From a virus: a stretch of 29,957 nt of DNA. The position numbers were made by a program, and so were the translations under genes. The notes under the pieces are model-generated. The model saw nothing but the letters and a program-made list of their open reading frames with translations. It was not told the origin of the DNA and made no database searches. How positions within the stretch are numbered: the stretch's first letter is position 1; each line of letters opens with the position of its first letter. Shown one piece after another: positions 1 through 28,771 of the stretch. The stretch lies in IMG/VR virus record IMGVR_UViG_3300042111_000204, positions 1 to 29,957 of that record; one strand, written 5' to 3'.

Positions 1-2410
1 GCTTCCGCGAGTCGCCGCTCTCGTACTGGACCCAAGTCTCCTTGAAAGTTCCGAGGTTGAACACGGCGAGTTGCCCGGCCTTGCGTCCGGCTTCGAGGGC
101 GTCCTCGGCCCTGTCTGGCGCAAACCTCGTAGATATGTCGATGTAGAAGTCGTCTCCGGCTCTCCAGCCGCCAACGTACCGATCGGGGTTGTCGAGCACG
201 TCTTCGTTCTCTTCGAGCCACGACGCGAATGCGTCGCGTCCTTCTCTCGTTCTGATCTCGCTGGCCCTGATCTGTAGCGACCGGCGGCTGTCGTTTTGAA
301 ACTCGCTGACCATGATTCCGTCCGACGGCGACTCGGCAGAACTCGGGTCGAGCGTGAAGCCATCTGGGTTCTGCGAAATCTTGTCGAGCAGTTTCTCGAC
401 GTCGTCGTCGCTGACGCGTCGCGATGGTGTCTTCGTCGCAGAGGGTGGCCTATCGGAGGCGACAGCACCGCCGCCGCCGCCTGTGCCATCAGCCTGACAC
501 TGATTCTTCGGACCGAATCGGCCGCCGTCGTCTCGCCCGCAGTTGTCTCCGAAGACACGCTGCTCTGCCTCTTCCGGAGACCTCGCCTCGATGAGTTTCT
601 CCGAGGGAATCACCCACAGTTTGCAGATGCCGTCCGGATTGATCCCGCCCTTGACGATCTCGCACGCGCCGCCTTCTTCGTAGTACACGCAATTGCGGCA
701 TACCATTCCGCGATTCGCGAACGGCGAACGAGGCGAGTAGTGAGCGTCGACCTGCGTCCACCGGCCCTGCTTCCTCGCGATCTCCTCCTGAGCCTTGTAG
801 AGCGCCTCGCTCTGCGGCGTGAGCCCTCGGCTCTCCTCGACCGCTGGCTTCTCCTCCGCCGGCTTGAGTGTCGACGCCTCGACGCCAACCTCGTCGCCCG
901 TCTCCTCGTCGACGACGAGAGCGAGCGGTTTGCCGGGCTCGACCTCGATCTTCTCGCCCGACTTGAGATCGAGCGTGCCTTTCTCCATCACATGCTTGAC
1001 GCGACCGAACTTGCCCTTCGCGTACTCGACGAGTGGCTCGGCCTTCTTCTCGGACGGCTTGCCCTGCTCGGCCTCCATCGGAGTCTTGCCAGTCTTGACC
1101 TCCGGAAGACTCGGGACACCTCCGGCGGCCTCGGGCGGAGGTCCGGGCATGCCGGGCATGCCGCCGGGTTGCTCCTTGGGCTTGAGTGCCTCCTCGATCG
1201 GCTGAAGGTTCATCGCGACCAGATGGTGATCGCCGATCTCGCCCATGGGAGGCAGATTCTCGGCCCTGCGGCACTCGTTGTGCGTCATCAGGCCGAGGTT
1301 GAGCATCGTGGAATAAAACGCGGCGCGAGCGTTTGAGTTGCCTCGCATCAGGCCGCGTGTGTCGAACTCAGCGAAGAACACGTCGTCGTTGTAGATCAGG
1401 CTGCGGGAGATCGCGCTCTCGATTCGACGCAGCCACGGCACGAGCGTGTACGTCACGAACTCTTGTCCGTTCTCCTCGATGCTGCCGGACGACTGGCCCT
1501 GAATCAGCGAAAGAGGCAACCTATAGACCCTCGCGATCTCCTCGGACTGGAAGCGTCGCGTGGATTCGTACTGGCTCTGCTCTGCATTGAAGCCGACCTG
1601 CTCGACACGGAGCCCGTTGGTGAGGATCGCTGTTCGGCTCGCTCGATCGACGCCCCTGTGAATCCTCTCCCAGTTGTCGCGAAGACGCTCGGCCGCTTCG
1701 GGAGAAAGCGAACTGTCCGTCTGGAGCACGATCCCCGGGCGAGCGGAGTTCGCCCAGAACCTGCCGGCGTGAATCTCGCAGGCCCTCGCAAGCGCGATCG
1801 CCTCGCGAGCGATCTCCACCGGGACCATGCCCTTGATGCCGTCCGGCTCCGGAGTCCACCGGACGTGCATGATGTCGTCCTGAGTGTATTTCTCGGCGTG
1901 GCCGTTCTCGGGATTCATATACGAGTACCGCAGCCGGCCGTTCTCAAGACGCTCCACGTCCATGTTCGACGGGTGAAGGTTGTCTAGCGCCGACACGGCC
2001 CCATACCTTCCCGACCGAATGCGGCTATAAGAATTACCCCAGAGGGTAAGGTTCATAACCATCTGCTCGAAGAACTCGAACTTGGTCTGCCATTCGTTCG
2101 GCGCGAACGACAAGACCTTGTAGAGAGGAATGTCCGAGGCGAGTTCCTTGTACCCGTCCTTGGTGCGGCGATAGACGTGCAAAGGCATGGCCGCGATGGT
2201 CTCGGCCAGAATGCGACACGCGGCGAGCACGACAGTGCTCTGGAGGGCCGTGTCCGGCGTGATCCGGATGTCGGCGGACGTCTGCGTCTTGCCAGTGAAG
2301 CCGTCTTCTCCGAAGAGAAGATTGTTCCAGTACATGGAGCGAATCTCGGGCTCCGCGTGCCCGCGTTCCGGTGTCCAGACAATGTCGGACAAGACCCGCT
2401 CTTCGCTCAT
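1..2410 (-). CDS. HK97-type portal protein with long C-terminal extension (3' end beyond window)
   Basis: The frame is open for 803 codons from the ATG at 2410 to the window edge; I checked every codon for stops. Residues 1 to about 400 read as an HK97-family portal, the dodecameric ring at the capsid vertex through which DNA passes. Visible features include the N-terminal 'PDTALQSTVVLAACRILAET', 'MPLHVYRR' and 'RVYRLPLSLIQG'. Portals of this family usually stop near 400-450 residues. Here a Gly/Pro-rich linker (about 405-425) leads into a charged segment, then a four-cysteine cluster (Cys571, 574, 583, 596) ending CKLWVI. A second Cys/Gly segment (FGPKNQCQADG) and a poly-Gly stretch follow, then an alpha/beta-looking domain (about 705-803, 'YVGGWRAGDDFYIDIS'). 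The start overlaps the terminase stop as ATGA. The portal call is firm; the extension's function is unknown. It could be a fused maturation or ejected module. Confidence 0.88.
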   Translation of the reverse strand, partial: MSEERVLSDIVWTPERGHAEPEIRSMYWNNLLFGEDGFTGKTQTSADIRITPDTALQSTVVLAACRILAETIAAMPLHVYRRTKDGYKELASDIPLYKVLSFAPNEWQTKFEFFEQMVMNLTLWGNSYSRIRSGRYGAVSALDNLHPSNMDVERLENGRLRYSYMNPENGHAEKYTQDDIMHVRWTPEPDGIKGMVPVEIAREAIALARACEIHAGRFWANSARPGIVLQTDSSLSPEAAERLRDNWERIHRGVDRASRTAILTNGLRVEQVGFNAEQSQYESTRRFQSEEIARVYRLPLSLIQGQSSGSIEENGQEFVTYTLVPWLRRIESAISRSLIYNDDVFFAEFDTRGLMRGNSNARAAFYSTMLNLGLMTHNECRRAENLPPMGEIGDHHLVAMNLQPIEEALKPKEQPGGMPGMPGPPPEAAGGVPSLPEVKTGKTPMEAEQGKPSEKKAEPLVEYAKGKFGRVKHVMEKGTLDLKSGEKIEVEPGKPLALVVDEETGDEVGVEASTLKPAEEKPAVEESRGLTPQSEALYKAQEEIARKQGRWTQVDAHYSPRSPFANRGMVCRNCVYYEEGGACEIVKGGINPDGICKLWVIPSEKLIEARSPEEAEQRVFGDNCGRDDGGRFGPKNQCQADGTGGGGGAVASDRPPSATKTPSRRVSDDDVEKLLDKISQNPDGFTLDPSSAESPSDGIMVSEFQNDSRRSLQIRASEIRTREGRDAFASWLEENEDVLDNPDRYVGGWRAGDDFYIDISTRFAPDRAEDALEAGRKAGQLAVFNLGTFKETWVQYESGDSRK

Positions 2411-4026
2411 AGCACGAGAATCTCCGGCTCGGGAGTCTTAGCGGCGGCCTCGGCGTCGCTGGCCCCGGCAAGTGCCATGACGAGCGCGACGATGCCGTCA
2501 ACTCGGGCAGGGCTTGTGCTGGATGGCTTCACGACCTTGATGTACCCCTCGGCCGACGTCTTCGTCACCGCGTTGCCGGCCATCCAGTTGATGATCGGGT
2601 TGTCTTGCGTTCTCAGCCGGCCCTGACTGATCAATGTTTCGAGCAGACGCGTCGATGAGTTCATCGAGGCGAACGACTGTGAAAAGCCTAGCACGGTCAG
2701 GCCTTCCGCCTGAAGTTGCTGCGTCAGGTAATGGGCGTTGTGTGGGTCGCAGAGAATCTTCGCGACCTGACGCTCCTTCGCGAACGCGAGGATGTCTCGC
2801 TTGATGAACTCGTAGTCGCACGTATCTCCCGGTGTCATCACCAAGCCTGTCGACGCGTCTTTCGCCCAGATCGTGTACGGCACCTCTTCTTTTCGCTGGT
2901 GTGCGTTGTCAGCGGGTATCCAGAACCTGAACAGGCAGTCGTAGACGTCGTCGTGGGCCTTCGAGACCGCCACCAACGCGTTGACGTCCCATGTCTGGGC
3001 GAGGTCGAGCCCGCAGTACCAGACGCGAGACTTGTCGAGGTGCCCAGACTTGCCCTTGCACTTCTCCCACTGGGTCAAGTTCACGAACTTGTTCTCGCCG
3101 TGCACCCAGACGTTGAGTCGGTACCGCAAGAAGCCGGCGAGTTTCGAGCCGCCCGACCGCTCAGCCTCAAGCACGTCGGCCTTGAACGTCTCCTCGTCCA
3201 TCGTGACGCCGAACGACGGATTCGCGGCACGCCAGACGCTCGGGCTCCTGTAGTCGTCGTCCGTGGAGGCCGCGCGGACGTATGCGAAAAACTGCGAGTC
3301 GTACGACGGGTCTTCCATGACCTTGATCGCCTGATCATGCAGTTCGTAGCCGATCGAGTCTCGGTCGACTCCGGCTGTTGTAATGGCGAGCACGAGGCCT
3401 TGACTTCGAGAAATCGAACCGTAACGGACGGCGTCCCATAGCGCCCTGTCGCGGCTCTGATGTATCTCGTCATAACAGAGCGAGTGGATGTTCAGGCCTT
3501 CCTGCCGGCCGGCGTCCGACGAGATCACCCGCCAGAAAGAGTTCGTCGGGACGCACGCGATCGTCTTGCGAGAGTCGACGATCTCCAGCATCGACGACAG
3601 GTATGGACTCGCCTGTACCAACTCCTTCATCTGCTTGTAGACGATGCTCGCCTGATCTCGCGAATTGGCGGCGCCGAAGCATTCAGCCGATGGCTCGCCG
3701 TCTGCGACGAGCATGTAGAGGCCGATACCGGAGAGGAGGGTCGACTTGCCGTTTTTCTTCGGCACCTCGATGTACCCGACACGATACTTTCGCGTGTCTG
3801 AGTCAGTTCGCATCCACCCGAAGAGTTCCTCGATGACGTCATGCTTCTGCCACGGCAGCAGCGTGAACGGCTTGCCGGCGAAGCGACCCTTCGAGTGGAT
3901 CAGAAACTTCTCGAAGAACCCGACCGCGTGCGCGGCTTTGGTCTCGTCGAAGTAGTACGGCTCGCCTTGTTCAACCGCCTCGTCGCGAGATATACGCGGC
4001 AAGAGGATTTTCGGGGGCAGAGGCAC
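2407..4026 (-). CDS. terL: Terminase large subunit (packaging ATPase/nuclease)
   Basis: 539 residues. This is the motor that cuts concatemeric DNA and pumps it through the portal. The Walker A-like motif is KNGKST (91-96), Walker B is LCYDE (183-187) and the coupling motif is AITTAG (about 215-220). The RuvC-like nuclease domain starts at about 335 with YCGLDLAQ (Asp341). The C-terminal 'VDGIVALVMALAGA' is typical of the Terminase_1/HK97-like family. The GTG at 4026 has AAGG about 7 nt upstream and overlaps the small subunit gene by 56 nt. The stop overlaps the portal start. Length and motif order are normal. Confidence 0.95.
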   Translation of the reverse strand: MPLPPKILLPRISRDEAVEQGEPYYFDETKAAHAVGFFEKFLIHSKGRFAGKPFTLLPWQKHDVIEELFGWMRTDSDTRKYRVGYIEVPKKNGKSTLLSGIGLYMLVADGEPSAECFGAANSRDQASIVYKQMKELVQASPYLSSMLEIVDSRKTIACVPTNSFWRVISSDAGRQEGLNIHSLCYDEIHQSRDRALWDAVRYGSISRSQGLVLAITTAGVDRDSIGYELHDQAIKVMEDPSYDSQFFAYVRAASTDDDYRSPSVWRAANPSFGVTMDEETFKADVLEAERSGGSKLAGFLRYRLNVWVHGENKFVNLTQWEKCKGKSGHLDKSRVWYCGLDLAQTWDVNALVAVSKAHDDVYDCLFRFWIPADNAHQRKEEVPYTIWAKDASTGLVMTPGDTCDYEFIKRDILAFAKERQVAKILCDPHNAHYLTQQLQAEGLTVLGFSQSFASMNSSTRLLETLISQGRLRTQDNPIINWMAGNAVTKTSAEGYIKVVKPSSTSPARVDGIVALVMALAGASDAEAAAKTPEPEILVL

Positions 4027-4435
4027 CGGGAGCCTTGATCGAGGAGCGTGCGGCGGGGGTCATGCCGAACTGTCGCTCGATCGCGAGCATGTCGGCCCGA
4101 AGAGACTTGATCAGCGTGGCCTCCGCGGTGATCTGGCTGTAGCCAGTCTGCGTCACCTGCGTCCAACCATGTTCCTTGCAGTGCGCTTCGAGCGAGAGCC
4201 ACTGTTCGTACATCAGGCAGTAGCGCTGAAGCGGCTGCCGATCAGCCTGAGTGAACACGCCCATCTTCGAGAGCAGGTCGACCATCTCGTCCCACTTGTC
4301 GAGCGCGATTCCGGCAAGGCCAGCCGGCGGGTTGGGGTCAGCGGGCGGCGGCTGAGGCTCGTCGGCGTTCAGCGGGCGCTGGCCCGGGTTGCCGCGAAGA
4401 ACCTTGAGCGACGTCGGAGTCGGGTGCCGTCCCAT
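3971..4435 (-). CDS. terS: Terminase small subunit, P27 family
   Basis: 154 residues. The small subunit recognises the packaging site and recruits the large subunit. The N-terminus GRHPTPTSLKVLRGNPGQRP is the P27-family signature, followed by a Pro-rich linker, 'KWDEMVDLLSKMGVFTQADR' and 'QRYCLMYEQW'. I chose the ATG at 4435 because the family consensus begins there. The frame stays open upstream to 4912, but that part is low-complexity sequence from the repeat-rich non-coding region. It is followed directly by the large subunit with an overlap. Confidence 0.9.
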   Translation of the reverse strand: MGRHPTPTSLKVLRGNPGQRPLNADEPQPPPADPNPPAGLAGIALDKWDEMVDLLSKMGVFTQADRQPLQRYCLMYEQWLSLEAHCKEHGWTQVTQTGYSQITAEATLIKSLRADMLAIERQFGMTPAARSSIKAPGASAPENPLAAYISRRGG

Positions 4436-5126
4436 TTTGCCTGTTTTTGGCCTCGAAACCCCTACCCCAAAATTCTGCGGGCGTTCACGCTGTCGCGCAG
4501 CGTGGGGCTTGCGTTTGAAACCCCCGAAAAAACCGACACTCCCCGGGGGTGGGTCGCCATATGCATTCTCAGGCGTCGAAGTGGCGACGTAAAGTTCCCA
4601 ACGCACATCGAGAAGTCGACGTTTTGCGATTTGTTTTCGATATGACTGGGGCTTCGAGGTTCTGCGCTCGCGACCTTGCAGGAAACATCGCGCGTTTTTC
4701 TTACGCGCGTTGCCCTCTGGTGTCGCGTCTCTCGCTGGCCCTCTCGGCCCTTGCCCTCTACACGCGCAGGCGCGAGTGCATGCCTGCCCGCGCGCGTGCG
4801 TTGCTTCGGAAGTTTGTGTTTCCCGGGAAAGCGATGGTGCGTGACAGATTTCTGTCAGAGCGATGACAGGGACCAGCGGGACCAAATTTGGATTTCGATT
4901 TTGGTCCCCCATAAGTCCTTGTCAGATAACGACTTACGTCACGAAAATGCCTCTGGGACCGGGGACCACTCGTGCGCACGCCTACGCGTGTGCGTGCGCA
5001 TGCGTGGTTTTTTGGTCCCACAGCACTTAAACCCAATGCTGACAACGACTTAGGAGATACCAGATCGCTCAAAATACTTTGTCCCTTTGGTCCCTTCATT
5101 ATTTGAGTTCTAACACCCCGATTTTT
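4436..5126. repeat. Non-coding repeat-rich region, candidate packaging (cos/pac) or regulatory site
   Basis: No convincing gene lies in these 690 bp. The box GGGACC occurs at 4869, 4878, 4955 and 4962, and its complement GGTCCC at 4903, 5014 and 5089. TGACAG/CTGTCA boxes at 4842, 4852 and 4864 form two nested inverted repeats. AACGACTTA is directly repeated at 4928 and 5044, each just after a GTCA or GACA. Two alternating purine-pyrimidine tracts (about 4755-4800 and 4971-5006) could adopt Z-DNA. A CCCCGGGG palindrome near 4541-4549 sits beside an A/T run. The position directly ahead of the small terminase gene is where packaging sites commonly lie. The function is inferred, not shown. Confidence 0.55.
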
Positions 5127-6375: not shown

Positions 6376-7496
6376 TAGCCGTCCTCGTTCCTTGCGAGAA
6401 AGTACTTCATAGCGAGATCGCTGCTCTCTCGCGTGCTCCACACGAGAAGTCCGTCTTCTCTATGCATCAACGGGTACTCGCCGCCTTGCATTGGCGGCAT
6501 GAACTTGTATCGCTCCTCGTATTTTCTATTTTCTCTTGTCCCGTGCCACCTGTGATACACAGTTCCTGACACATGACCGACTCTTGCTTTGAGTGACAGC
6601 ATGTGTGTTCTGTAAGACTTGTACGAATCAGTCTCGGCAAACGCGTGGCTATCGCTCTTGGGAAGTCTCGGCACGCACGGCGTCATGGCGAAGACAAACG
6701 CCGCATCGCCGCCGCCAAGCGGATGCCGCTCGTAAAAGCCACCGCAGCGATTGAAAAAGTCGCGAGTCATGCCCCACGCGAAGCCCGGGTGATATCTGCC
6801 GAGAAGCGGCTGCTCGCCTTTCTCGATGGCGAACACAGAAGGCTCCCTCGCGAGTTCGATTCTTCCGTCTTGTGAGAGCCACGCGGCGTTCGTGAATGGC
6901 TGGATGACGTCGTGAGATTCGAGCGATTCGCTGACTGCATCGAAGATGTCGCGGCGAGTGAAGAAGATGTCAGCGTCGAGGAACAGGATTTTGCTGCGAG
7001 AGCCCATTCTCGCGGCCATGTTCCAGATATTTTCTTTCAGAAAGAGCACAGAGTCGCTCTCGAACAAGACACACTCGGCGCCGGGCGGAAGTTCGGCCGG
7101 CTTTTGCCCGGGGAGCGTCACCTGCACGACGACTGGCCGCAGGCCCGCCTCGATCACGGACTTGCATGTCTCGTACAGGAGCACCGGCGTCGTCTTCCAT
7201 CCGGCCGGGTTGTAGTGGCACATAACAACGTCGAGGTCTCCTCGCGTTGCCTGCCAATAGCCGCCACCTCGCCTGCGGCTCGCGACTGAGATGAGGCGTT
7301 CTGCCGTATCGTTGCCGATCGAGAAGCCTCGCTTGGAAGCCTCTTCGACAACCCACGACGAGAGCCTCTCGTCCGAGTTTCCAGAGTCAGCGACGCGGAT
7401 TCGCGCTTCGAGCGTCTTGCCAGTCAGGCGAGACTTCGTGAGTCGCTCGCATATCCTGCGAAGCCTGCTGCCAATCAACTGCTGACGCCGCAGCAT
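6375..7496 (-). CDS. Glycosyltransferase, GT-A type
   Basis: 373 residues from the ATG at 7496. The DxD metal/nucleotide-sugar motif lies in ILFLDADIFF (DAD at about 174-176). It is followed by 'HPGFAWGMTRDFFNRCGGFY', 'GGGDAAF' and 'VYHRWHG', the acceptor-side elements typical of inverting GT2/galactosyltransferase-like enzymes. The N-terminal ~80 residues are basic and of unclear role. I chose 7496 for its GGAG at 9-nt spacing; an in-frame ATG at 7511 is possible. The gene overlaps the end of the tail-fibre gene. It likely decorates a virion or host surface glycan. Confidence 0.85.
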   Translation of the reverse strand: MLRRQQLIGSRLRRICERLTKSRLTGKTLEARIRVADSGNSDERLSSWVVEEASKRGFSIGNDTAERLISVASRRRGGGYWQATRGDLDVVMCHYNPAGWKTTPVLLYETCKSVIEAGLRPVVVQVTLPGQKPAELPPGAECVLFESDSVLFLKENIWNMAARMGSRSKILFLDADIFFTRRDIFDAVSESLESHDVIQPFTNAAWLSQDGRIELAREPSVFAIEKGEQPLLGRYHPGFAWGMTRDFFNRCGGFYERHPLGGGDAAFVFAMTPCVPRLPKSDSHAFAETDSYKSYRTHMLSLKARVGHVSGTVYHRWHGTRENRKYEERYKFMPPMQGGEYPLMHREDGLLVWSTRESSDLAMKYFLARNEDG

Positions 7497-11542: not shown

Positions 11543-12514
11543 TCAGCCTCCGAAGACCAGCACAGGCCACATCGATGCGGCCACTTGGTTTGTGTTCGAC
11601 GCCGCCGAGATCGTCAGGGTTGTCCCGTCCTTCGCCACGCCGACGTTGCTGCCGGCGACGATCGAGACAGCCCCCGTGATCTCGTTGACTGCGAAGTTGC
11701 CGGCGAGCCCTGAGATGTCGCTGGTCGAATGTGTATGAACTGCCGGAGCGGCCGTCAGGTCCGCTGGAGACAGGGTCACGGTGCCAGTCTTGCCCTGCAC
11801 ACTGACCACGTTCGCGAGCGTCGTGAGCCCGCTGATCTGGCTCGTCGAGTGCGTATGCGTCGCCGGCGCGGCCGTCAGGTCAGCGACCGAGAGCGAGACG
11901 GCGCCGGTCCTCCCCTGCACGCTGACCACGTTCGCAATGGTCGTGAGCCCGGAGATATCGCTCGTCGCGTGGGTGTGGACGGCAGCCGCGCCAGTGAAGT
12001 CGACAATGGAGAGCGTGACTGTCCCGGTCCTGCCCTGCACGCTGAAAACCCGCGAGTTCGCGACGATCGCGGCCGTCAAGCCGGTCACGTCGGTCGTCGA
12101 GTGGGTATGGACGACCTCTGCGTAGGAGTGCGTATGCGACGCCGCCGCGGCAGTGAGATCGGCCAGCGTCAGGACGACAGAGCCAGTCCTGCCCTGCACC
12201 GAGGCCACGGCCGCGCTGTATCCAGAGATATCGCTGGTCGAGTGCGTGTGAACTGCGGGTGCAGCGGTCAGGTCTGCCACAGAGAGCGTGACGGTCCCTG
12301 TCTTCCCCTGCACTGAGAAGAGTCGGGCTATTTCGCCCGAAATTACGATCGAACTAGACGAAGTCGAGACCGTGATCCCGACGCCGGCGACGATGGGGTT
12401 GATCCCAGCGACGCCAACGACGGACGTCGCCGAGCCGGTGACGATGACGGCCGGGCCCACTCCGGCGGACACCGAGACCTGAATGGCAGCGTCTTGAGTT
12501 GTCTCGACGGGCAC
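11543..12514 (-). CDS. Tail fibre protein with HTH repeats (paralogue)
   Basis: 323 residues. The N-terminus ('GVGPAVIVTGSATSVVGVAG') is clearly related to the fibre at 7475-9967. Six HTH motifs follow in the same SVQGxTG-VxLS-DLTAA-HTHSTSDISGL units, ending with a short Gly/Ala-rich tail. I chose the GTG at 12514, which lies just after the previous stop and has AGGAG at 9-nt spacing. Reading could begin earlier, but that would overlap the upstream gene. It probably assembles as a trimeric fibre. Confidence 0.85.
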   Translation of the reverse strand: MPVETTQDAAIQVSVSAGVGPAVIVTGSATSVVGVAGINPIVAGVGITVSTSSSSIVISGEIARLFSVQGKTGTVTLSVADLTAAPAVHTHSTSDISGYSAAVASVQGRTGSVVLTLADLTAAAASHTHSYAEVVHTHSTTDVTGLTAAIVANSRVFSVQGRTGTVTLSIVDFTGAAAVHTHATSDISGLTTIANVVSVQGRTGAVSLSVADLTAAPATHTHSTSQISGLTTLANVVSVQGKTGTVTLSPADLTAAPAVHTHSTSDISGLAGNFAVNEITGAVSIVAGSNVGVAKDGTTLTISAASNTNQVAASMWPVLVFGG

Positions 12515-12515
12515 G

Positions 12516-12866
12516 TCACGGACTCCTGACGGACACTGTGCCACTCAGGACAGTCCGGGTGATCAGGCCCGGTGCCGTCCATCGCATGAACCACCTGTAG
12601 TTGCCCGTGAGGCTCAGCGACTGCGTCTGTGACTCGTCGAGCGACAGATTGATGCGGCCCTCACTCAGCGAGACAACCAACTGAGTGAACTGCATGACGT
12701 TGTTGTACGCAGTCACGTTCCCCCCCGAGACGCCGAGCACCTCGATGATGCGAGTCTCGAAGAGATACCCAGACAAGTCTTGATCGAAGTCCAAGAGCAG
12801 ACTCAGTTCATCGCCTTGGACGAAGACAACGTCCAATGTGTCGGGCAAGACAGAGTAAACAGCCAA
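12516..12866 (-). CDS. Beta-rich tail accessory protein (paralogue of 17801-18121)
   Basis: 116 residues from a TTG at 12866 with GGAGG 7 nt upstream. It shares a pattern with the gene at 17801-18121: early 'GD' followed by 'DFD', a later 'L-QTQSL', and a C-terminal 'RWTAPG..RTVLSGTVSV'. The fold looks like a single beta-sandwich, as in baseplate or receptor-binding adaptor domains. Each paralogue precedes a fibre gene, suggesting an adaptor for its own fibre. Confidence 0.75.
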   Translation of the reverse strand: MAVYSVLPDTLDVVFVQGDELSLLLDFDQDLSGYLFETRIIEVLGVSGGNVTAYNNVMQFTQLVVSLSEGRINLSLDESQTQSLSLTGNYRWFMRWTAPGLITRTVLSGTVSVRSP

Positions 12867-20904: not shown

Positions 20905-21297
20905 TTATCCACCCGAAGTGTCGGCGAGGTCTTCGATTGACGGAGAATCGTCGCCGGACGACGTCACTCGGAACGACGACTCCGAGATGATCGGTACTTC
21001 AAACTGCGGAGTCGATTGCCCCACTCGCCGCCTCTCTCGCTCTTCGTCGCTCCACGTCGCCTGAAAGGCGAGGCATTTCTCGCGTATCTCCTCCTCCGTA
21101 GGCAGATAGGCCTTGCGGTGTCCTGTCTTGGAGCCGTGCCAAGACTCTCGCGGCGGCAGCCCGAGGGCTTTCCGTGTAACGTCGCAGCGGTCCGCGCTGA
21201 TCTTCAGCGTCTCGGCAATGATCCGGGTGGGAGTCCCGGCGAGCCACATCGAGGAGAATGTGGCAGTGCAAACTTCAATCTGGTTTTTCTTCGTCAT
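20905..21297 (-). CDS. HTH DNA-binding protein (paralogue of 23917-24186)
   Basis: 130 residues. The N-terminal helix-turn-helix reads 'AGTPTRIIAETLKISADRCD'. It is followed by 'EEIREKCLAFQATWSDEERE' and RRRVGQ, a conserved tail (Trp-Ser-x-Glu-Glu-Arg-x-x-Arg) found in small phage regulators. It shares both parts with the gene at 23917-24186. The C-terminus is acidic and Ser-rich. The two flank the glycosylation cluster and may regulate it; this is inference. The ATG at 21297 overlaps the glycosyltransferase stop. Confidence 0.78.
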   Translation of the reverse strand: MTKKNQIEVCTATFSSMWLAGTPTRIIAETLKISADRCDVTRKALGLPPRESWHGSKTGHRKAYLPTEEEIREKCLAFQATWSDEERERRRVGQSTPQFEVPIISESSFRVTSSGDDSPSIEDLADTSGG

Positions 21298-22159
21298 CTT
21301 GGGGAAGCCAGAACGAAACCACCCGCTGGGATGGGTTCAGGTAACATTCCCCGCCGCACGTTTGCCAATGCGAGACATGCTCGCAGTCCCCGCCCTTGTA
21401 CTCGCCGCGGAGATAGTTCTCCGTCCTGTAGACCGCGAGTTGGCCGAATGCGGAGTTCACACGCACCGGCGGCGACCCCACGGGTGGGTGCCACAGGTGG
21501 AACCACCGCATGTCGAGATGCTCCCTCCACCACGTCCACCGGCACGCGAACGCGTCGTACTGGCACGCCTCGCGTCGAAACCAGTGCGGCGGCCCCCACT
21601 CGCACCACGAGTACGCGGCCATCCCGGCGGCACTCGCGTACGCCGGGTCCGCGAGGTGGCCCACCGTGTTCATCACGCCGTCAATCGACCAGCCGCCCCA
21701 AGGGTCCGTGTCGAACACGATCGTGATGTCGAAGTCATTTGCGTGCTCGCGAACCCAGTCGCGACATGCGTTGCGGTACTCCGCCAACGCGATCGTCCTC
21801 TCGGCGGCCTTCGTGAAATTCAAGTGGGGTCGCCCGTTCGTCGTCGACACAACAGAGAGCCATTCGTTCTCTATTGCTGCTTGCTTCAGGAACTCGGCAG
21901 TACCATCGCTGGAGTCGTTCTCGAAGATGAAAACCTTGGCCTCTCGAAACTTGCTCGCTGTCGCAGCCACGCGGGCCATCGTGAGAGGCAGCCACGGCAT
22001 CGCGTTTCGGCAGATCGCCGTCAGGCAGACCCGCATCGAGGCCGCCGCTTCTTTGCCGGCCTGCACCCTCGACTCATACTCGCCGGCAAACTCCTCGTCC
22101 GGAGGAAGAAGCGAGTCCGGGTCGTGCTCTCGGACGTCGTCGAACGTCACCGTTGGCAT
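21275..22159 (-). CDS. Glycosyltransferase, GT-A (GT2/CAP59-like)
   Basis: 294 residues. Motifs are 'AKVFIFENDSSDGTAEFLKQ' (nucleotide-sugar binding, ENDSSDGT 80-87), 'LAEYRNACRDWV' and a DxD in ITIVFDTDPWGGW (150-152). This layout matches CAP59-type mannosyltransferases and related viral enzymes. The ATG at 22159 has GGAG 8 nt upstream and overlaps the previous gene by 13 nt; longer starts are unsupported. It is the last of three consecutive glycosyltransferases. Confidence 0.82.
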   Translation of the reverse strand: MPTVTFDDVREHDPDSLLPPDEEFAGEYESRVQAGKEAAASMRVCLTAICRNAMPWLPLTMARVAATASKFREAKVFIFENDSSDGTAEFLKQAAIENEWLSVVSTTNGRPHLNFTKAAERTIALAEYRNACRDWVREHANDFDITIVFDTDPWGGWSIDGVMNTVGHLADPAYASAAGMAAYSWCEWGPPHWFRREACQYDAFACRWTWWREHLDMRWFHLWHPPVGSPPVRVNSAFGQLAVYRTENYLRGEYKGGDCEHVSHWQTCGGECYLNPSQRVVSFWLPQDDEEKPD

Positions 22160-22824
22160 CGAAGCGTCTCCACGATCTCGCCGCCGACGTAGGTCGGCAC
22201 GTCCCCGCACCAGTCGTGCGTCAGCACTAACCCGGTGACGGCCAGTCCGGTGAGGTGCGGGTATCCGTACTTTCCAAACGCAGACGGGCGGTCTGGCCTC
22301 TCGAAACCGTCGTGATGGTGCGTTGTTCTGATATCGATTGCCGGGTCAATGACCTCGATGCCGCTCGATGCCGCCCAGCCGATAACCCGCTGGTCGCAGC
22401 CGTTGTGGCCGAGAGGAATCGCGTCTTCCATGTGCGGAATTCTGTCCCCGACGAACACCCACGAGTCTTGAGAGCCAGAGAACAGTCGTTCTTCGTGATG
22501 GTGCCCGATTAGGCGAGGGCTGCACGCATTCTCCCACCGAGTCAACGCGATGAGCCGTCCGGGTTCTGCGATCTTTGCGAGCATGTCGCAGCCTTCGTCG
22601 AACGTGATGTCCGTATTCGCCACCACGCAGGGCACGTCCCGGCAGCGTGTCGCGGCGAGGTCGAACAGGTCGGCGAAAGTTCGCCGGCTTTTGGTGCCGT
22701 CGAGGTACACGCACGCGTCAAGTAAGCCGCATGACTCGTTGACCCGCCTCGCGTGCCGCAACTCCCGCAGCCTCTTCGGATCGCTTGGCTCGTACCACTG
22801 CGAGATCAGTATCAAGACGCCCAC
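22147..22824 (-). CDS. Glycosyltransferase-like protein
   Basis: 225 residues. 'ISQWYEPSDPKRLRELRHAR' and 'VVANTDITFDEGCDML' (70-82) match a family of viral and phage glycosyltransferase-like proteins with an NxD in place of DxD. 'GHNGCDQRVIGWAASSGIEV' and 'DIRTTHHHDG' look like acceptor-site elements. The GTG at 22824 overlaps the previous gene by 13 nt; a TTG five codons on is an alternative. It acts with its neighbours, substrate unknown. Confidence 0.75.
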   Translation of the reverse strand: MGVLILISQWYEPSDPKRLRELRHARRVNESCGLLDACVYLDGTKSRRTFADLFDLAATRCRDVPCVVANTDITFDEGCDMLAKIAEPGRLIALTRWENACSPRLIGHHHEERLFSGSQDSWVFVGDRIPHMEDAIPLGHNGCDQRVIGWAASSGIEVIDPAIDIRTTHHHDGFERPDRPSAFGKYGYPHLTGLAVTGLVLTHDWCGDVPTYVGGEIVETLRCQR

Positions 22825-23384
22825 CCCCTAACCGCGGCGAGTTGGTCTGGCATGCCGCACGCATGCCGAAAGAACGGCTCGATCTCCGGCGGAGAACCGC
22901 TCCAGCAGTTCCACCTTTCTGGAAGTACGTGCGTTGCGATCCGTCTTCGCTCCATGACTCGATGTACGGCGGCCTGCTCCCACCAGCGGTGATGCACGCA
23001 GTCGTCCTCCATCGCGGCGGCGACGAGACTTGGCAACATGCCGCCCCGAAGAACCCACACTCCCGTGTTGAGGTGATCCGGGTTCGGGTGCATGACCATG
23101 GCCTGCTCGCATTCAGCAGGAACCTCGTCAAACACGCTGACGCCCATCGCGAGATCACACACCACCACGTCCGTGTCGAGCCACAACACCTCGTCATGGA
23201 TCGCCAACGCCTCGGCAATCCAGATCAGTTTCTCCCAAGCAGGAGGCCGGGACGTCCACGACTCGCTGAACCCGTAGCACATCACGCCTATCGACGATGC
23301 GTATCGCTGGATTCGCGGCCATGTGATGTCGGCCATCGCCCGCCAGCGATCACCGATGGCGCCGGTGACGACTGCTCGTGTCAT
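22812..23384 (-). CDS. Small glycosyltransferase (GT-A fold)
   Basis: 190 residues, short for the fold. DxD lies in 'DEVLWLDTDVVVCDLAMG' (70-72). 'HPNPDHLNTGVWVLRGG' carries the N-x-G-x-W/F acceptor element, and 'HHRWWEQAAVHRV' follows as in GT34/GT8-like enzymes. The ATG at 23384 overlaps the methyltransferase stop as ATGA. It probably extends a short glycan with the other two enzymes. Confidence 0.8.
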   Translation of the reverse strand: MTRAVVTGAIGDRWRAMADITWPRIQRYASSIGVMCYGFSESWTSRPPAWEKLIWIAEALAIHDEVLWLDTDVVVCDLAMGVSVFDEVPAECEQAMVMHPNPDHLNTGVWVLRGGMLPSLVAAAMEDDCVHHRWWEQAAVHRVMERRRIATHVLPERWNCWSGSPPEIEPFFRHACGMPDQLAAVRGWAS

Positions 23385-23941
23385 GGATTCTTACGGAGGA
23401 CGACTCCGCCGCTGTGCTGGCCGATGAGCGAGTGGAACCGCGGGTCGGCCGGAAGCAGGTCGATGGGGTGCGGCGACTGCCCCCAGCGGAAGTGCGCGTC
23501 CTCGATGACATAGAGTCCGCCCGGCGAGAGGGCATCCCAGAGCACGTTGAGCGACAACCACTGGTGCTCTGACAGGTGCGAGCCGTCGTCGATGATCACG
23601 TTCACAGGGTTAATGGCGGCGGCGAGCCGCGACAGACTCTCTCGGCTGCCTTGATCGCCCTGCACGAACCGAAAGCGAGGGCTGTTGATCTCGACGGTCG
23701 GGTTGATCAGGTCGAACCCAACGATCTCTGTCTCGGGCAGCCATTCCAGCCACGAGAGAATCGAGCCGCACGAGCCGTTGAAGTTCAGGTGCGTGCCGAT
23801 GCCGATTTCGCACAGACGCTTGATGTTGCGGCCAATTAGCGTCTCGTAATCGCGAGAGTACAGATGCCCGTGCCCGCACGTCCCCTTGTCGGAGCCGAGC
23901 CGATCGAAGATCGCCGTCAGCGAATCAGCGGTGGAGTCCAC
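23381..23941 (-). CDS. MycE/cephalosporin-hydroxylase-like methyltransferase
   Basis: 186 residues. 'GSDKGTCGHGHLYSRDYETL', 'CEIGIG' (motif I, 44-49), 'IVGFDLINP' (Asp77), 'VIIDDGSHLSEHQW' (115-127) and 'GGLYVIED' match the macrolide sugar O-methyltransferase/CmcI-like family. The family usually methylates deoxysugars and binds Mg through the DDGSH acidic residues. I chose the GTG at 23941 for its GAGGAG at 7-nt spacing; it overlaps the HTH gene by 25 nt. It likely caps a sugar added by the three glycosyltransferases. Confidence 0.85.
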   Translation of the reverse strand: MDSTADSLTAIFDRLGSDKGTCGHGHLYSRDYETLIGRNIKRLCEIGIGTHLNFNGSCGSILSWLEWLPETEIVGFDLINPTVEINSPRFRFVQGDQGSRESLSRLAAAINPVNVIIDDGSHLSEHQWLSLNVLWDALSPGGLYVIEDAHFRWGQSPHPIDLLPADPRFHSLIGQHSGGVVLRKNP

Positions 23942-24186
23942 TGCGTGCTCCTCTTGCCTCCGACCAGACGCCGGGCCTCCTCCTCCGGAGACCACGTCTC
24001 GCGGACCGCCTGAGCCCTCGCAGCGATCTCATCGGGATGCGGGTCGTCGTCGTCGGGGCCTTCCTCGATGAGGCCGATCGAGTCAGCGAGCCTCCGCACA
24101 GTCGACGGCTTGACCTGATGCGTCTTCGCGATCTGCGTGACCGTCGCCGTACCCCACACGAGCCGAAGTTCCTTCAGCGACATCAT
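23917..24186 (-). CDS. Small HTH DNA-binding protein
   Basis: 89 residues. The N-terminal HTH is 'ATVTQIAKTHQVKPSTVRRL'. The C-terminal part 'IAARAQAVRETWSPEEEARR' and RLVGGKR matches the Trp-Ser-x-Glu-Glu tail of the gene at 20905-21297. Tandem ATGs at 24186/24183 are preceded by GGAGG at 9 nt. It is the first gene after a strong hairpin, so it may begin a separate transcript covering the glycosylation cluster. Confidence 0.78.
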   Translation of the reverse strand: MMSLKELRLVWGTATVTQIAKTHQVKPSTVRRLADSIGLIEEGPDDDDPHPDEIAARAQAVRETWSPEEEARRLVGGKRSTQWTPPLIR

Positions 24187-26346: not shown

Positions 26347-26369
26347 GCCGCTGATCGCTGGCGTTCTCC
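26347..26369 (+). other. Half attC site (L'-R' only), left end of array
   Basis: GCTGATC (L'), GCTGGC (6-nt spacer) and GTTCTCC (R') are identical in layout to the right halves of attC2 and attC3. No partner AAC/L'' half is visible within 120 bp to the left. It stands exactly where an attI or the preceding attC would lie in an array of this orientation, and is probably a truncated attC. Confidence 0.7.
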
Positions 26370-26374
26370 GACCG

Positions 26375-26620
26375 TCACTGCCGCAGCATAGCCTGCGAAT
26401 ACTCCCAGTCCGTGTCGCTCTCGGTGTAGCCCTTCCGTTCGTTTTCCCACTCTCTGTGCAGCACGGCGACAGAGACGCCGCCTATTGGGATATACCCCTG
26501 AGCCATCAACAGAGACACTTCGACCTCAAGCGCCTCCGCGCTGCTAGCAGATGCAACTCGGTACGCGCGAGTCGGAGAACCAGCCGATGCAACGGACGGC
26601 CCTGCGTCGTCATGTGTCAT
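26375..26620 (-). CDS. DUF1737-like small protein (cassette 1)
   Basis: 81 residues. The segment 'AYRVASASSAEALEVEVSLL' followed by 'MAQGYIPIGGVSVA' and SQAMLRQ matches DUF1737, a small domain of unknown function. The first ~16 residues (MTHDDAGPSVASAGS) are encoded inside attC1, nearly the same peptide as in the cassette-4 gene. The ATG at 26620 has GAGG upstream within the attC centre. The stop lies 10 nt left of the half-site GTT region. Confidence 0.8.
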   Translation of the reverse strand: MTHDDAGPSVASAGSPTRAYRVASASSAEALEVEVSLLMAQGYIPIGGVSVAVLHREWENERKGYTESDTDWEYSQAMLRQ

Positions 26621-26662
26621 GGTGAGTCCTCGTGTGGCCGCCGTTGATCTTCCGTGTTCTCA
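26574..26662 (+). other. attC1 recombination site
   Basis: R'' GGAGAAC (26574-26580), spacer CAGCC, L'' GATGCAAC, L' GTTGATC, spacer TTCCGT, R' GTTCTCA (26656-26662). After removing the extra G in L'' and the A at 26596, the arms pair perfectly over 14 bases. It contains the start codon of the cassette-1 gene (26618-26620), and the stop of the next gene lies in R'. Confidence 0.85.
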
Positions 26663-26932
26663 CTTGTCCTGTTTGTCCAACTTGGCGGCAAACAAAATCT
26701 CGGCCCGCCGCTCTTCCGCCGTCTTGCCCGGTTGTGCGGCCTGCCATTCGCCACACGTTTCAGCCCATGCTCGCTCAATGATCGGCTGCGAATAGTGGCA
26801 CACCTTGTCGCCGTATTGGTCAACAATGTCGCCAGCGTAAGCCGGCGGATGTGCCTTGCACAGCGAGTCGAAGTCGTCGTAGAAGGTGCAGTGTAGGCAC
26901 CGCTTTGTTGGGTCTAGCACCTCATTCTCCAT
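26660..26932 (-). CDS. Small Cys-rich protein (cassette 2)
   Basis: 90 residues. The N-terminal 'KRCLHCTFYDDFDSLCKAHP' with later Cys45 and Cys60 suggests a metal-binding knuckle; the C-terminal half is helical and charged. Family unknown. The stop TGA lies inside the R' box of attC1. The ATG at 26932 is just left of attC2 and has no clear Shine-Dalgarno. Confidence 0.75.
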   Translation of the reverse strand: MENEVLDPTKRCLHCTFYDDFDSLCKAHPPAYAGDIVDQYGDKVCHYSQPIIERAWAETCGEWQAAQPGKTAEERRAEILFAAKLDKQDK

Positions 26933-26940
26933 TGCTCATG

Positions 26941-27028
26941 TGATAACCACGCGATCCAGCGGACCCGCGATGCCGCCGTTTGGTGTTGTTCGTCAGCGGT
27001 CGCGGGCCGCTGATCGCTGGCGTTCTGT
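26941..27028 (+). other. attC2 recombination site
   Basis: R'' TGATAAC, spacer CACGC, L'' GATCCAGC, L' GCTGATC, spacer GCTGGC, R' GTTCTGT. The stem GATC(C)AGCGG(A)CCCGCGA pairs with TCGCGGGCCGCTGATC, leaving an extra C and A on the L'' arm. These correspond to G and T on the folded bottom strand, the two extrahelical bases described for the aadA7 attC. Confidence 0.87.
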
Positions 27029-27030
27029 GT

Positions 27031-27258
27031 CTACTTGCCGTCCGTTGGCGGGGCCGGGAGCGGCATCCAGTGGGTGACCTTTGCCGTCTCTGACCCAACC
27101 GCCGTCAACACAATCCAACGCTTTTGCTCTGCTCGCCAGCCAATCGTCACTCGCTCGCCTGACGCCCCCCACGCAGATTCGATCCTCACAAGCACCGACT
27201 TCATAAGTGGCGGCAGTCGCTTGTTCTTCGCGGAGGCCCATCGCCTTGCTGTCTGCAT
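27031..27258 (-). CDS. DUF551-like small protein (cassette 3)
   Basis: 75 residues. The end VTHWMPLPAPPTDGK is the hallmark C-terminus of DUF551 phage proteins. Upstream 'MKSVLVRIESAWGASGERVT' and 'IGWRAEQKRWIVLTAVGS' look like its beta-strands, though the family's N-terminal Trp/Pro motif is weak. The ATG at 27258 has GGGAG 6 nt upstream and lies left of attC3. The stop TAG follows attC2 by 2 nt. Confidence 0.78.
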   Translation of the reverse strand: MQTARRWASAKNKRLPPLMKSVLVRIESAWGASGERVTIGWRAEQKRWIVLTAVGSETAKVTHWMPLPAPPTDGK

Positions 27259-27282
27259 TGTCAACTCCCTTGTCCTACGCTC

Positions 27283-27372
27283 ACAGAACCCCGCGATGCA
27301 GCGGACCCGCGATAGCGTCGGTTGGTTTGTTCATGGTCATAGGTCGCGGGCCGCTGATCGCTGGCGTTGCTC
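27283..27372 (+). other. attC3 recombination site
   Basis: R'' ACAGAAC, spacer CCCGC, L'' GATGCAGC, L' GCTGATC, spacer GCTGGC, R' GTTGCTC. The stem is nearly identical to attC2 (GAT(G)CAGCGG(A)CCCGCGA), while the centre differs. The stop of the 47-residue gene overlaps R'. Confidence 0.86.
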
Positions 27373-27514
27373 ACCCCTTGCGAATGGTATCTCTTTTCGG
27401 TCGTCGCTTTGACTTCTTCGCCCGCCGCCTTCGATTTTCACCGTCATGTGGAGGGCATCTGTCGCACTTGCCAGTCTGCTTGCAAATCTCCTGCCATCGT
27501 TCTCCCTTTGGCAT
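27371..27514 (-). CDS. Short basic Cys-containing protein (cassette 4, second gene)
   Basis: 47 residues. 'WQEICKQTGKCDRCPPHDGE' contains Cys11, Cys17 and Cys20, followed by a strongly basic tail (RRRRAKKSKRRPKR), so it may bind nucleic acid. The ATG at 27514 has GAGGAG upstream. The stop TGA lies within attC3 R'. Together with the next gene it makes cassette 4 the largest in the array. Confidence 0.65.
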   Translation of the reverse strand: MPKGERWQEICKQTGKCDRCPPHDGENRRRRAKKSKRRPKRDTIRKG

Positions 27515-27562
27515 TGTCTCCTCTACTCCAGCAGCGAACGAAGCCTCCGCTTATTCTTCGCA

Positions 27563-27862
27563 TTATGCCTTCTTGCTACAGCAGCCGTCGCATCCGTGGA
27601 TGTTTTTGTAACCTTGCCCGAGCCGCTCCCGGTATGCGGCATCGTCCGGGTCCGGGTGTCCGACTCCGTGCGGGCAGATTCGCTCCATCTGCCCCTTGTC
27701 GTCCCGCCACCGCATCGGCCACTCTCGCATGTGATGGTCCGATGGATTGTGGATGCAGCAGTATTCGCCAGCGCATTTCGTTGCGTCATGCGTCACAAGG
27801 TTTGCGGGCGGCTTGGCATAACCAGACGATGCAACGGACGGCCCTGCGTCGTCATGCTTCAT
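27563..27862 (-). CDS. Small Cys/His-rich phage protein (cassette 4)
   Basis: 99 residues. 'CAGEYCCIHNPSDHHMREWP' and 'ERICPHGVGHPDPDDAAY', with a final HGCDGCC, match an unnamed small phage family whose Cys/His pattern suggests zinc binding. The first ~14 residues (MKHDDAGPSVASSG) come from attC4 and resemble those of cassette 1. I chose the ATG at 27862 (GGAG 9 nt upstream, in the attC centre); a TTG at 27910 is less likely. Confidence 0.8.
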   Translation of the reverse strand: MKHDDAGPSVASSGYAKPPANLVTHDATKCAGEYCCIHNPSDHHMREWPMRWRDDKGQMERICPHGVGHPDPDDAAYRERLGQGYKNIHGCDGCCSKKA

Positions 27863-27905
27863 GGTTGAGTACTCCGGCGGCCGCCGTTGCTCTTCCGTGT
27901 TCTCA
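27816..27905 (+). other. attC4 recombination site
   Basis: R'' GCATAAC, spacer CAGAC, L'' GATGCAAC, L' GTTGCTC, spacer TTCCGT, R' GTTCTCA. The arms match attC1 with one mismatch (GTTGCTC for GTTGATC). It contains the ATG of the cassette-4 gene and its Shine-Dalgarno GGAG. Confidence 0.84.
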
Positions 27906-27910
27906 GTCAA

Positions 27911-28084
27911 CTAGTTCAAAACGCCGCGCCCCCGTGAGGGCTGCTTAATGTGGCAACCGGCAGCGCGAACATGACTGCTTCCTCGCACGGGGGACGCGGA
28001 CGCTGTGTTGTACGTTTCATGCGCTTCATCTGAGAACCACGCGATGCAGCGGACGAGCCGCTGACCGCTGGCGTTCTCGCTCAT
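27911..28084 (-). CDS. Doubtful small ORF across attC5 (cassette 5)
   Basis: 57 residues, starting MSENASGQRLVRCIAW. The ATG at 28084 overlaps the cassette-6 gene stop as ATGA, and the first ~18 codons are attC5 itself. The rest is low in hydrophobics and unlike a folded protein. The cassette may instead be non-coding and hold the hairpin at 27924-27999. I keep it only as a candidate. Confidence 0.35.
   Translation of the reverse strand: MSENASGQRLVRCIAWFSDEAHETYNTASASPVRGSSHVRAAGCHIKQPSRGRGVLN
27924..27999. other. Imperfect hairpin in cassette 5
   Basis: Arms CCGCGCCCCCGTGAGG (27924-27939) and CCTCGCACGGGGGACGCGG (27981-27999) pair with one or two bulges. It fills most of a 174-bp cassette with no convincing gene. 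It could be an RNA element, a terminator or a decayed attC (an AAC precedes it, but no GTT lies at the right distance). Confidence 0.5.
28031..28079 (+). other. attC5 recombination site, minimal form
   Basis: R'' TGAGAAC, spacer CACGC, L'' GATGCAGC, then GG, a 5-nt loop and CCGCTGACC, spacer GCTGGC, R' GTTCTCG. The whole site is 49 nt with no variable terminal structure, the shortest in the array. L' has one mismatch to L''. Confidence 0.75.
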
Positions 28085-28410
28085 AGCCCAAAGCAAATCA
28101 GCGTAGCCCACCGCCACGCCCAGTAGATCGAATGTCTGACGCCAAACGCGCCGCGATCAATCCCGTACTGCTGTGCGAACACCAGCGGAAACGCGGCGGC
28201 CCGAAGCAGGACATGGCGTCCCGGTCGGCACCACTTCGGCAGTGAGTTCATGCGAGCCAGCAAGTTCCGCTGCTGCTCAATCGACAGCCGCATCCACATC
28301 TCATGGACTGTAATCGGTGTGCCAAGGTTGCCACCTCCGGTCTGCACGGTGCGAGAACCAGCGGATGCAGGAGACGTCTCGGCCGCGCCCCGCGTGTTGT
28401 CATCGCTCAT
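28081..28410 (-). CDS. Hypothetical protein (cassette 6)
   Basis: 109 residues. The first ~19 (MSDDNTRGAAETSPASAGS) are encoded inside attC6. The rest contains 'MWMRLSIEQQRNLLARMNSL', 'RPGRHVLLRAAAFPLVFAQQ' and a hydrophobic end 'YWAWRWATLICFGL', perhaps membrane-associated. The ATG at 28410 has AGGAG 10 nt upstream, formed by the complement of attC6 L'. Family unknown. Confidence 0.7.
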   Translation of the reverse strand: MSDDNTRGAAETSPASAGSRTVQTGGGNLGTPITVHEMWMRLSIEQQRNLLARMNSLPKWCRPGRHVLLRAAAFPLVFAQQYGIDRGAFGVRHSIYWAWRWATLICFGL

Positions 28411-28441
28411 AGTTCGCCGCTCCTGATCCTTGTCGTTCGCT
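28352..28441 (+). other. attC6 recombination site carrying a gene start
   Basis: R'' CGAGAAC, spacer CAGCG, L'' GATGCAGG, L' CCTGATC, spacer CTTGTC, R' GTTCGCT. Stem GAT(G)CAGGAG(A)CG pairs with CGCTCCTGATC. Read on the minus strand, L' gives GATCAGGAG, a Shine-Dalgarno for the ATG at 28410 in the centre of the site. Confidence 0.86.
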
Positions 28442-28740
28442 TACTCTTTCGCCTTCAGTGTGTCGCACAATTCCTGCACCGCCTTGAGCAGCACTTTGGC
28501 CGACTCCAGTTTCGGGCATCGGACGAAAACGCCAAAGTTCTCGCTGTTGCCTTTTGGCGATATGGCACCGATGTCGCATGGCTGGGTTAGCGCTCGCATG
28601 AGGATGCCGGGCGTTTTGTCTTCGTCCTCAATGCACTTGATGCCAACCAGTCCGTCGCCAAGTGGCACCGTAATCATGAACAGCGAACCAGCGGATGCAG
28701 GAGACGGCTCGGCTGCGTCATGCGTGTCGTCATCGCTCAT
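28441..28740 (-). CDS. Hypothetical protein (cassette 7)
   Basis: 99 residues. The attC7-encoded leader is MSDDDTHDAAEPSPASAGS, followed by a compact alpha/beta-looking body ('FMITVPLGDGLVGIKCIEDE', 'FGVFVRCPKLESAKVLLKAV'). Family unknown. The ATG at 28740 has AGGAG from attC7 L'. The stop TAA overlaps attC6 R' by 1 nt. Confidence 0.74.
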   Translation of the reverse strand: MSDDDTHDAAEPSPASAGSLFMITVPLGDGLVGIKCIEDEDKTPGILMRALTQPCDIGAISPKGNSENFGVFVRCPKLESAKVLLKAVQELCDTLKAKE

Positions 28741-28771
28741 TGTTCGCCGCTCCTGATCCTTGGTGTTCTGT
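28682..28771 (+). other. attC7 recombination site carrying a gene start
   Basis: R'' AGCGAAC, spacer CAGCG, L'' GATGCAGG, L' CCTGATC, spacer CTTGGT, R' GTTCTGT. Stem GAT(G)CAGGAG(A)CGGC pairs perfectly with GCCGCTCCTGATC apart from the two extra bases. It contains the start of the cassette-7 gene and is the right end of the array. Confidence 0.86.

Follow-up and report, generated by a model that had tools for sequence, protein, structure and literature searches.

What is an array of integron-type recombination sites doing in a tailed-phage contig, and how could the small genes between these sites be exchanged and expressed? The question is raised by the IMG/VR record IMGVR_UViG_3300042111_000204, which was analysed over its full length of 29,957 bp and is called the window below. 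Seven complete sites and one half-site were identified from 26347 to 28767, all with the plus strand as the top strand, and they are confirmed as genuine integron attC-type sites. The array is very probably an integrase-less integron cassette cluster (CALIN) in a planctomycete tailed phage, whose cassettes would be exchanged by a host integrase, a reading that rests on comparison of sequences.

Architecture of the attC array

An earlier note on this DNA had listed seven sites with the attC layout. All seven are recovered as complete sites, and the first coordinate of that note, 26347, proves to be the start of an additional half-site:

26347..26367, plus strand: half attC at the left end of the array, consisting only of a right arm (L'-R') with the same sequence as that at 27006-27026
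26578..26658, plus strand: attC 1, CAACGG stem, found by the geometric scan; bottom-strand loop with a Shine-Dalgarno (SD)-like motif and an ATG at 26620; 56.2 bits, E 6e-15
26945..27024, plus strand: attC 2, CAGCGG stem, long; 74.9 bits, E 1e-20
27287..27368, plus strand: attC 3, CAGCGG stem, long; 71.5 bits, E 1e-19
27820..27901, plus strand: attC 4, CAACGG stem; bottom-strand loop with an SD-like motif and an ATG at 27862; 46.3 bits
28035..28075, plus strand: attC 5, short 41-nucleotide (nt) form; 41.2 bits, E 3e-10
28356..28437, plus strand: attC 6, CAGGAG stem; bottom-strand AGGAG and ATG (28410); 45.8 bits
28686..28767, plus strand: attC 7, CAGGAG stem; bottom-strand AGGAG and ATG (28740); 46.0 bits

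The geometric scan searched for AAC, 5 nt, a 3+1+6+1+3 left arm, a loop, a complementary right arm, 6 nt and GTT, with at least 11 of 12 Watson-Crick pairs and both extrahelical bases required. In its strict form it returned exactly the six long sites listed above from the 30 kb; neither the minus strand nor any of 60 dinucleotide shuffles gave a match. Sixteen spacer combinations were tried, among which 5/6 alone works, with one stray match at 6/7. The stems fall into three L-arm types (CAGCGG, CAACGG and CAGGAG), each with its matching partner. The two constant extrahelical bases that the earlier note had seen on one arm are real, namely a G (or C) after GAT and an A after the six-base L arm. 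DNA folding of the bottom strand produced hairpins with these bases bulged out in most sites (z-scores of -5.3 to +0.3). The left arm of the half-site is absent upstream, and the half-site is not picked up by the covariance model described below. An Rfam scan of the region gave one chance-level match only.

The 41-nt form is almost loopless (28035-28075 in the window; also L016 and L280), is common in array-bearing phages and alternates with the 80-82 nt form within the same cassette. It is shorter than any attC known to us.

The sites belong to the integron attC type

The window sites possess the AAC/GTT ends, the R and L arms, the imperfect inverted repeat and the variable loop of attC. The covariance-model check that the earlier note had proposed was carried out with a model trained on 69 chromosomal planctomycete integron sites only, and all seven window sites were detected at 41-75 bits (E 3e-10 to 1e-20), with the next match at 11.6 bits. 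In the training set, 98.5% of the pair cells are standard and double-change cells number 184 versus 37 after shuffling, a covariation signal that is biased by the selection of the set partly for pairing. A second set of 171 sites was selected without regard to the variable stem bases, and ten stem positions were counted. The eight inner positions are 86-99% Watson-Crick in both the phage and the chromosomal group, and several pair types occur at most of these positions. At the outermost two, chromosomal sites pair, but phage sites do so at only 34-43%. Among the scanned sites, the first extrahelical base is G in 214 of 224 and the second is A in 216 of 224. Sites on both strands of one locus never occur in this 224-site scan, and occur in 20 of 216 loci at looser settings.

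The exact degenerate left-arm pattern was found at 45 genome loci, many of them in Planctomycetota metagenome-assembled genomes (MAGs), where arrays reach 11 same-architecture sites in 8 kb. A full-length integron integrase (IntI) over the curated cut-off is encoded by 12 of the 16 genomes with such sites versus none of 14 controls, and the sites adjoin intI in several loci (L141, L164, L166, L167, L168 and L174). The integrase that the earlier note had suggested looking for is found in site-bearing genomes and not on the phage side: no integrase lies in the window, and IntI over the cut-off is present in none of the 50 viral records related to it. A phage-encoded IntI was dropped as a candidate on this count and because the tyrosine recombinases of these phages are diverse and mostly away from the arrays. 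The window holds no complete integron with intI and attI; intI is present in the host-type genomes. A CALIN comprises at least two attCs with no integrase nearby, and the window has seven, with no tyrosine recombinase in a record that is possibly a fragment.

One phage-type attC also lies in a record named Cyanobium sp. FGCU52 (L128), whose genome (G016) encodes full-length copies of IntI; planctomycete or phage DNA may have contaminated it.

Cassettes recur among phages and break at G|TT

Viral contigs were scanned three times, which yielded 114, 99 and 84 matching stretches with some overlap between the scans. The pooled set comprises 216 sequences including the window, with 583 sites and 143 loci with at least two sites, some of which overlap or derive from the same record. 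Besides the window, about 200 viral loci have sites of this kind. The largest phage array contains 14 sites, the array-bearing viral records reach 205 kb, and 13 of the 36 larger records encode a large terminase subunit (TerL) of the phrog_2 family, the only family counted.

The same cassettes occur in related phages with other neighbours and in permuted order, as the earlier note had expected. Cassettes 2, 3 and 4 of phage L031 are cassettes 4, 2 and 3 of phage L038, with genes and right attCs 100% identical, left attCs or outer flanks different, and a shared flanking phage stretch about 68% identical. A cassette common to L041 and L078 is 99% identical between unrelated neighbours. Three window cassettes recur elsewhere, and the copies in L016 and L039 have unrelated neighbours; for the former, the 94% DNA identity of the 26660-26932 cassette starts exactly at the GTT at 26656-26658.

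Breakpoints were analysed in 29 distinct recurring pairs whose outer flanks are unrelated. The spacer preceding the left GTT shows an identity of 0.5; the value rises to 1.00 at this GTT and immediately behind it, and is about 0.8 over the rest of the gene when aligned without gaps. Fourteen pairs retain their own attC, and in these identity drops from 0.84 to 0.31 immediately past the right GTT. This switch at G|TT is what integron recombination predicts, and the gene plus attC behaves as a unit bounded at G|TT, with exceptions broken at R''. Among the exceptions, the identity of L029 with L077 and of L022 with L078 runs exactly to AACCA and is followed by a site of another stem type; between L038 and L061 the stem type is the same and the loop different. 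Base-by-base comparison of the window cassettes with L016 and L039 shows the arms kept and the loop length changed, from sites of 80-82 nt to sites of 41-43 nt.

Cassette genes are mostly reversed, and many appear to start inside attC

The genes in and beside the window array all run on the minus strand, against the top strand of the sites:

26375..26620, minus strand: cassette gene, 81 aa, weak DUF1737 match (below the Pfam cut-off), starts inside attC 1 with the leader MTHDDAGPSVASAGS
26660..26932, minus strand: cassette gene, 90 aa, Cys-containing, recurs in phage L016 (94% DNA identity)
27031..27264, minus strand: cassette gene, 77 aa, DUF551 (PF04448, E 6e-8), recurs in phage L039 (92% DNA identity)
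27371..27514, minus strand: Cys-containing open reading frame (ORF), 47 aa, read from the sequence; shares its cassette interval with the 27563..27862 gene
27563..27862, minus strand: cassette gene, Cys/His-rich, starts inside attC 4 with the leader MKHDDAGPSVASSGY
28081..28410, minus strand: gene, 109 aa, starts inside attC 6 with the leader MSDDNTRGAAETSPASAGS and ends just right of attC 5
28441..28740, minus strand: cassette gene, 99 aa, starts inside attC 7 with the leader MSDDDTHDAAEPSPASAGS, recurs in L059 and L218
28774..29229, minus strand: DUF551-like gene (by eye, no Pfam match), right of the last attC

The last of these has no attC at its upstream end, and so is either resident or a former cassette whose site has been lost. 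Of the small genes that the earlier note had named between the sites, DUF551 is above the Pfam cut-off, Cys-rich proteins are present, and the weak DUF1737 match stays below the cut-off. As to its flanking genes, the nuclease adjoining the array matches the phrog_93 endonuclease, and the MazG-like gene was not confirmed.

The reversed orientation and the start codons inside the sites had gone unmentioned in that note. By the longest ORF, a rough proxy in GC-rich DNA, the direction in phage loci is against the attC top strand in 113 cases versus 40 with it; in chromosomal arrays it is 47 with and 12 against. The phage loci thus depart from the canonical cassette, in which attC lies 3' of a gene running in the top-strand direction, and the start signals strongly back the reversal. 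An SD-like motif followed by an ATG that opens an ORF of at least 30 codons into the cassette is present on the bottom strand in 222 of 325 unique long phage sites, versus 3 of 325 on the top strand. In the window, four of the six long sites carry these signals. Chromosomal sites have an SD-like motif and ATG in 3 of 86, none with the leader motif; lacking it, the three appear spurious.

When the SD motif is defined more strictly, the single frame that reads the R'' box as Gly-Ser contains 202 of 205 ATGs, a count in which related sites are non-independent and yet several leader types of different length agree. The frame is kept across site lengths of 77-84 nt. The leaders take forms such as MSDDNTQDGAEPSPASAGS, MTDEVDEMSAASRGS or MTDENEQSIPSRGS, usually 13-19 codons long. 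The attC appears to start translation of the gene by fusion, not by reinitiation. When CAGGAG-type sites are folded as RNA, their SD becomes part of the stem, and we speculate that translation from these sites might therefore be regulated. In a literature search, mostly of open-access papers, we came across no account of cassettes whose genes are reversed and have their start codons within attC.

Leader-bearing proteins number 111 distinct sequences, mostly below 160 aa. They include DUF551 proteins, 'PVAWAV...LTDEEREAI...LRGLLERLG' proteins, zinc ribbons, an HNH nuclease and C5 DNA methylases, for which accessory or counter-defence roles are plausible. The C5 DNA methylase genes fused to attC leaders lie in L019 near 9009 and in L043 near 7739 (the latter below the Pfam cut-off), and are possible counter-restriction cargo.

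The phage and its probable host

The window is a tailed-phage contig. No end repeats were found in the 29,957-bp record, so the window is possibly a fragment. The genes in its right-hand part are on the minus strand, its further products include an HNH nuclease and tail proteins, and its terminase genes are:

2407..4026, minus strand: TerL (PF20441 1e-32, PF03354 2e-25)
3971..4912, minus strand: terminase small subunit (TerS), true start probably internal (phrog_83 2e-37, PF05119 6e-20)

The nearest TerL among isolate phages is about 38% identical, and no isolate phage searched has the array, the single match being a weak one of 114 bp to a Mycobacterium phage gene. Elsewhere in the window, long tail-type proteins built from repeated 'SVQGKTGTVVLSVADLTAAPAVHTHSTSDVSGL'-like units are encoded at 7475-9967 and 11543-12544. 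A methyltransferase gene (phrog_21658) lies at 23381-23995, left of the nuclease genes, and its neighbours at 21275-23384 look glycosyltransferase-like, as judged by eye. The tyrosine recombinases encoded by array-bearing phages (L279, L281-L298; about 270-340 aa) fall into no fewer than two groups that are dissimilar to each other.

The host is most likely a member of the Planctomycetota. A chromosomal planctomycete contig, L127, in which hopanoid radical-SAM-like, ABC-F-like and ROK-like genes were read from the ORFs, encodes an IntI at 1047-2180 on the minus strand. The order is intI, the junction TACAAG|TTCTGTGGCTACTTG, a reversed DUF551-like cassette whose gene begins at GTTCTGTGGCTACTTG, and then two phage-type attCs. 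The first attC, of 47 nt, is of the type found in phages L041, L078 and L065, and the second is closely similar to attC 2 of the window. The 5' part of the L127 gene together with its attC matches phage L065 with 92% DNA identity over 134 bp, ending at GTT. Since no IntI was found in the 50 viral records and a phage-type cassette lies beside the L127 IntI, a host IntI probably acts in trans, which is the simplest reading. The 3' end of the L127 integrase gene faces the array, the arrangement of so-called reverse integrons.

Proposed cassette exchange and its alternatives

Site architecture, covariation, homology to integron sites near intI, cassette recurrence with breakpoints at G|TT and frame conservation are seen directly in the sequences; the action of host IntI, transcription in the phage operon, leader translation and the identity of the host we infer. 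A cassette typically comprises a single small gene of phage type and the attC on its right (plus strand), with the boundary at G|TT in the right arm. During infection, the integrase of a host chromosomal integron would cut the folded bottom strand, and thereby excise, insert and permute cassettes, both from phage to phage and in exchange with the host integron. The gene is opposed to its own attC, which thus lies at the 5' end of the gene. The coding strand of most long sites supplies the SD sequence, the ATG and the leader codons, which read through R'' as Gly-Ser in one frame. The array could be transcribed within the phage operon, and a leader-bearing cassette could be translated wherever it is inserted, because its start signals come from attC.

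Several observations weigh against this reading. The gene's own attC differs in 15 of the 29 recurring pairs, and several inspected breaks lie at AAC (R''), a position that calls for more than bottom-strand integron recombination; in other cases the sites differ in loop length only. The linkage between gene and attC is modest (Wilcoxon p = 0.006, n = 40 partly redundant pairs), with the expected direction in 19 of 28 deduplicated pairs. The site at 28356 folds no better than shuffled sequence. The R'/R'' of the phage sites are AGAAC/GTTCT-like instead of the RYYYAAC/GTTRRRY consensus, so that GTT alone of the GTTRRRY box is kept, mostly as GTTCTS; chromosomal planctomycete sites likewise depart from the consensus, and the deviation therefore looks like a lineage trait. 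The host assignment is based on site type and one MAG (L127), and a right-arm 20-mer almost identical to the one used for the viral scan was found in only one of 398 genomes of the class of L127, that of L127 itself.

Given the breaks exactly at AAC in inspected pairs, exchange occurs at R' and also at R''. The movement of repeats independently of the genes, which the earlier note had named as a refutation of its reading, is seen in part, in about half of the recurring pairs. The linkage of gene and attC is preferential, not absolute, and a strict claim that attCs never separate from their genes was rejected. Top-strand integrase recombination or homologous recombination in the arms are possible causes of the R'' exchange. 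As the ATG frame is common to the attC types, the reading frame of the protein survives a swap at R''. We lean, with less assurance than for the CALIN itself, towards planctomycete phages having reversed cassettes with a start and leader in attC that are traded through the host integrase, with R'' as a second exchange point that swaps leaders in frame.

The most durable alternative, which we nevertheless regard as unlikely, is that the repeats are conserved regulatory linkers (a hairpin plus a ribosome-binding site) of attC descent, and that cassettes are shuffled by homologous recombination within these repeats, ordinary or phage-encoded, as proposed for T4-type promoter/stem-loop cassettes, with no integrase acting now. 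Replacement of whole attCs at R'', the tens of bases of homology between same-type attCs, the occurrence of 41-43 and 80-82 nt forms in the same cassette, and phages without IntI all suit linkers. Linkers would, however, have no need of the conserved extrahelical bases and asymmetric 5/6 spacers, and they sit poorly with G|TT breakpoints even between different stem types with little homology, and with a phage-type cassette at the intI end of a host integron. It is very unlikely that a phage-encoded tyrosine recombinase recombines the sites instead of host IntI. Of the 36 larger array-bearing viral records, 24 do encode PF00589 over the cut-off in a frame of about 280-430 codons, but these proteins form dissimilar groups, lie mostly kilobases from the arrays and are missing from some array-bearing records, in addition to the lack of IntI in the 50 records and of any such gene in the possibly fragmentary window. 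Chromosomal integron DNA misassembled into, or misclassed as, viral contigs is the least probable explanation: all array-bearing viral records are metagenomic and no isolate phage has an array, but the window array continues a same-strand gene run on a contig that also encodes TerL, TerS and tail proteins, core synteny is conserved in related records from different metagenomes, reversed genes and leader-bearing attCs are almost absent from chromosomal arrays, and the exact right-arm 20-mer occurs in 114 viral stretches, with a near-identical one once in 398 genomes of the class.

If cassette exchange by host integrase holds, integron recombination would be a recurring engine of accessory-gene exchange across this phage set and not a rare stray capture, and the cassette pools of phage and host would be tied together. 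A start codon within the recombination site would explain how shuffled promoterless genes stay translatable, which reverses the usual view that attC hairpins hinder translation, and the exploitation of host integrase by phages during infection would become testable.

Comparison with known systems

T4-type phages have mobile regulatory (promoter/stem-loop) cassettes, repeated hairpins between small early genes that are associated with shuffling; we know of no attC geometry or integron relationship in them. The view in the earlier note that phages use integron cassettes to exchange accessory genes gains support from the model scores, the cassette recurrence and the IntI of site-bearing genomes; its impression that an array in a phage had not been described needs correction, as phage CALINs were published in 2023 (PMC9892861). 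Qi et al. reported integrase-less attC clusters in virulent and temperate phages, 17 of them in sequenced phages, with the typical cassette direction in TJE1 and PH101, and experimental use of phage attC sites by IntI1 (PMC9892861). As in those clusters, the cassettes here are bounded by attC without an integrase, and methyltransferase cassettes are present in both (PMC9892861). In contrast to them, the present set spans about 200 viral loci from metagenomes that have a single site family in common, and it shows reversed genes and start signals inside attC, cassettes permuted between phages, and a cassette type shared with a host integron.

Integrons in Planctomycetes were already known (PMC2426708). 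The planctomycete chromosomal integrons resemble the phage arrays in their 81-nt sites, L arms, two extrahelical bases and long arrays near intI, and differ in their mainly canonical ORF direction and in sites without a translation leader. Canonical cassettes carry attC on the 3' side of the gene, and its hairpin impedes translation; ORF-11 of attI1 is a short leader ORF with its own SD, located in attI (PMC4670013). The phage cassettes share with canonical ones the composition of a promoterless gene plus attC, and they differ from both canonical cassettes and ORF-11 in that attC lies 5' of the gene and apparently starts its translation by fusion.

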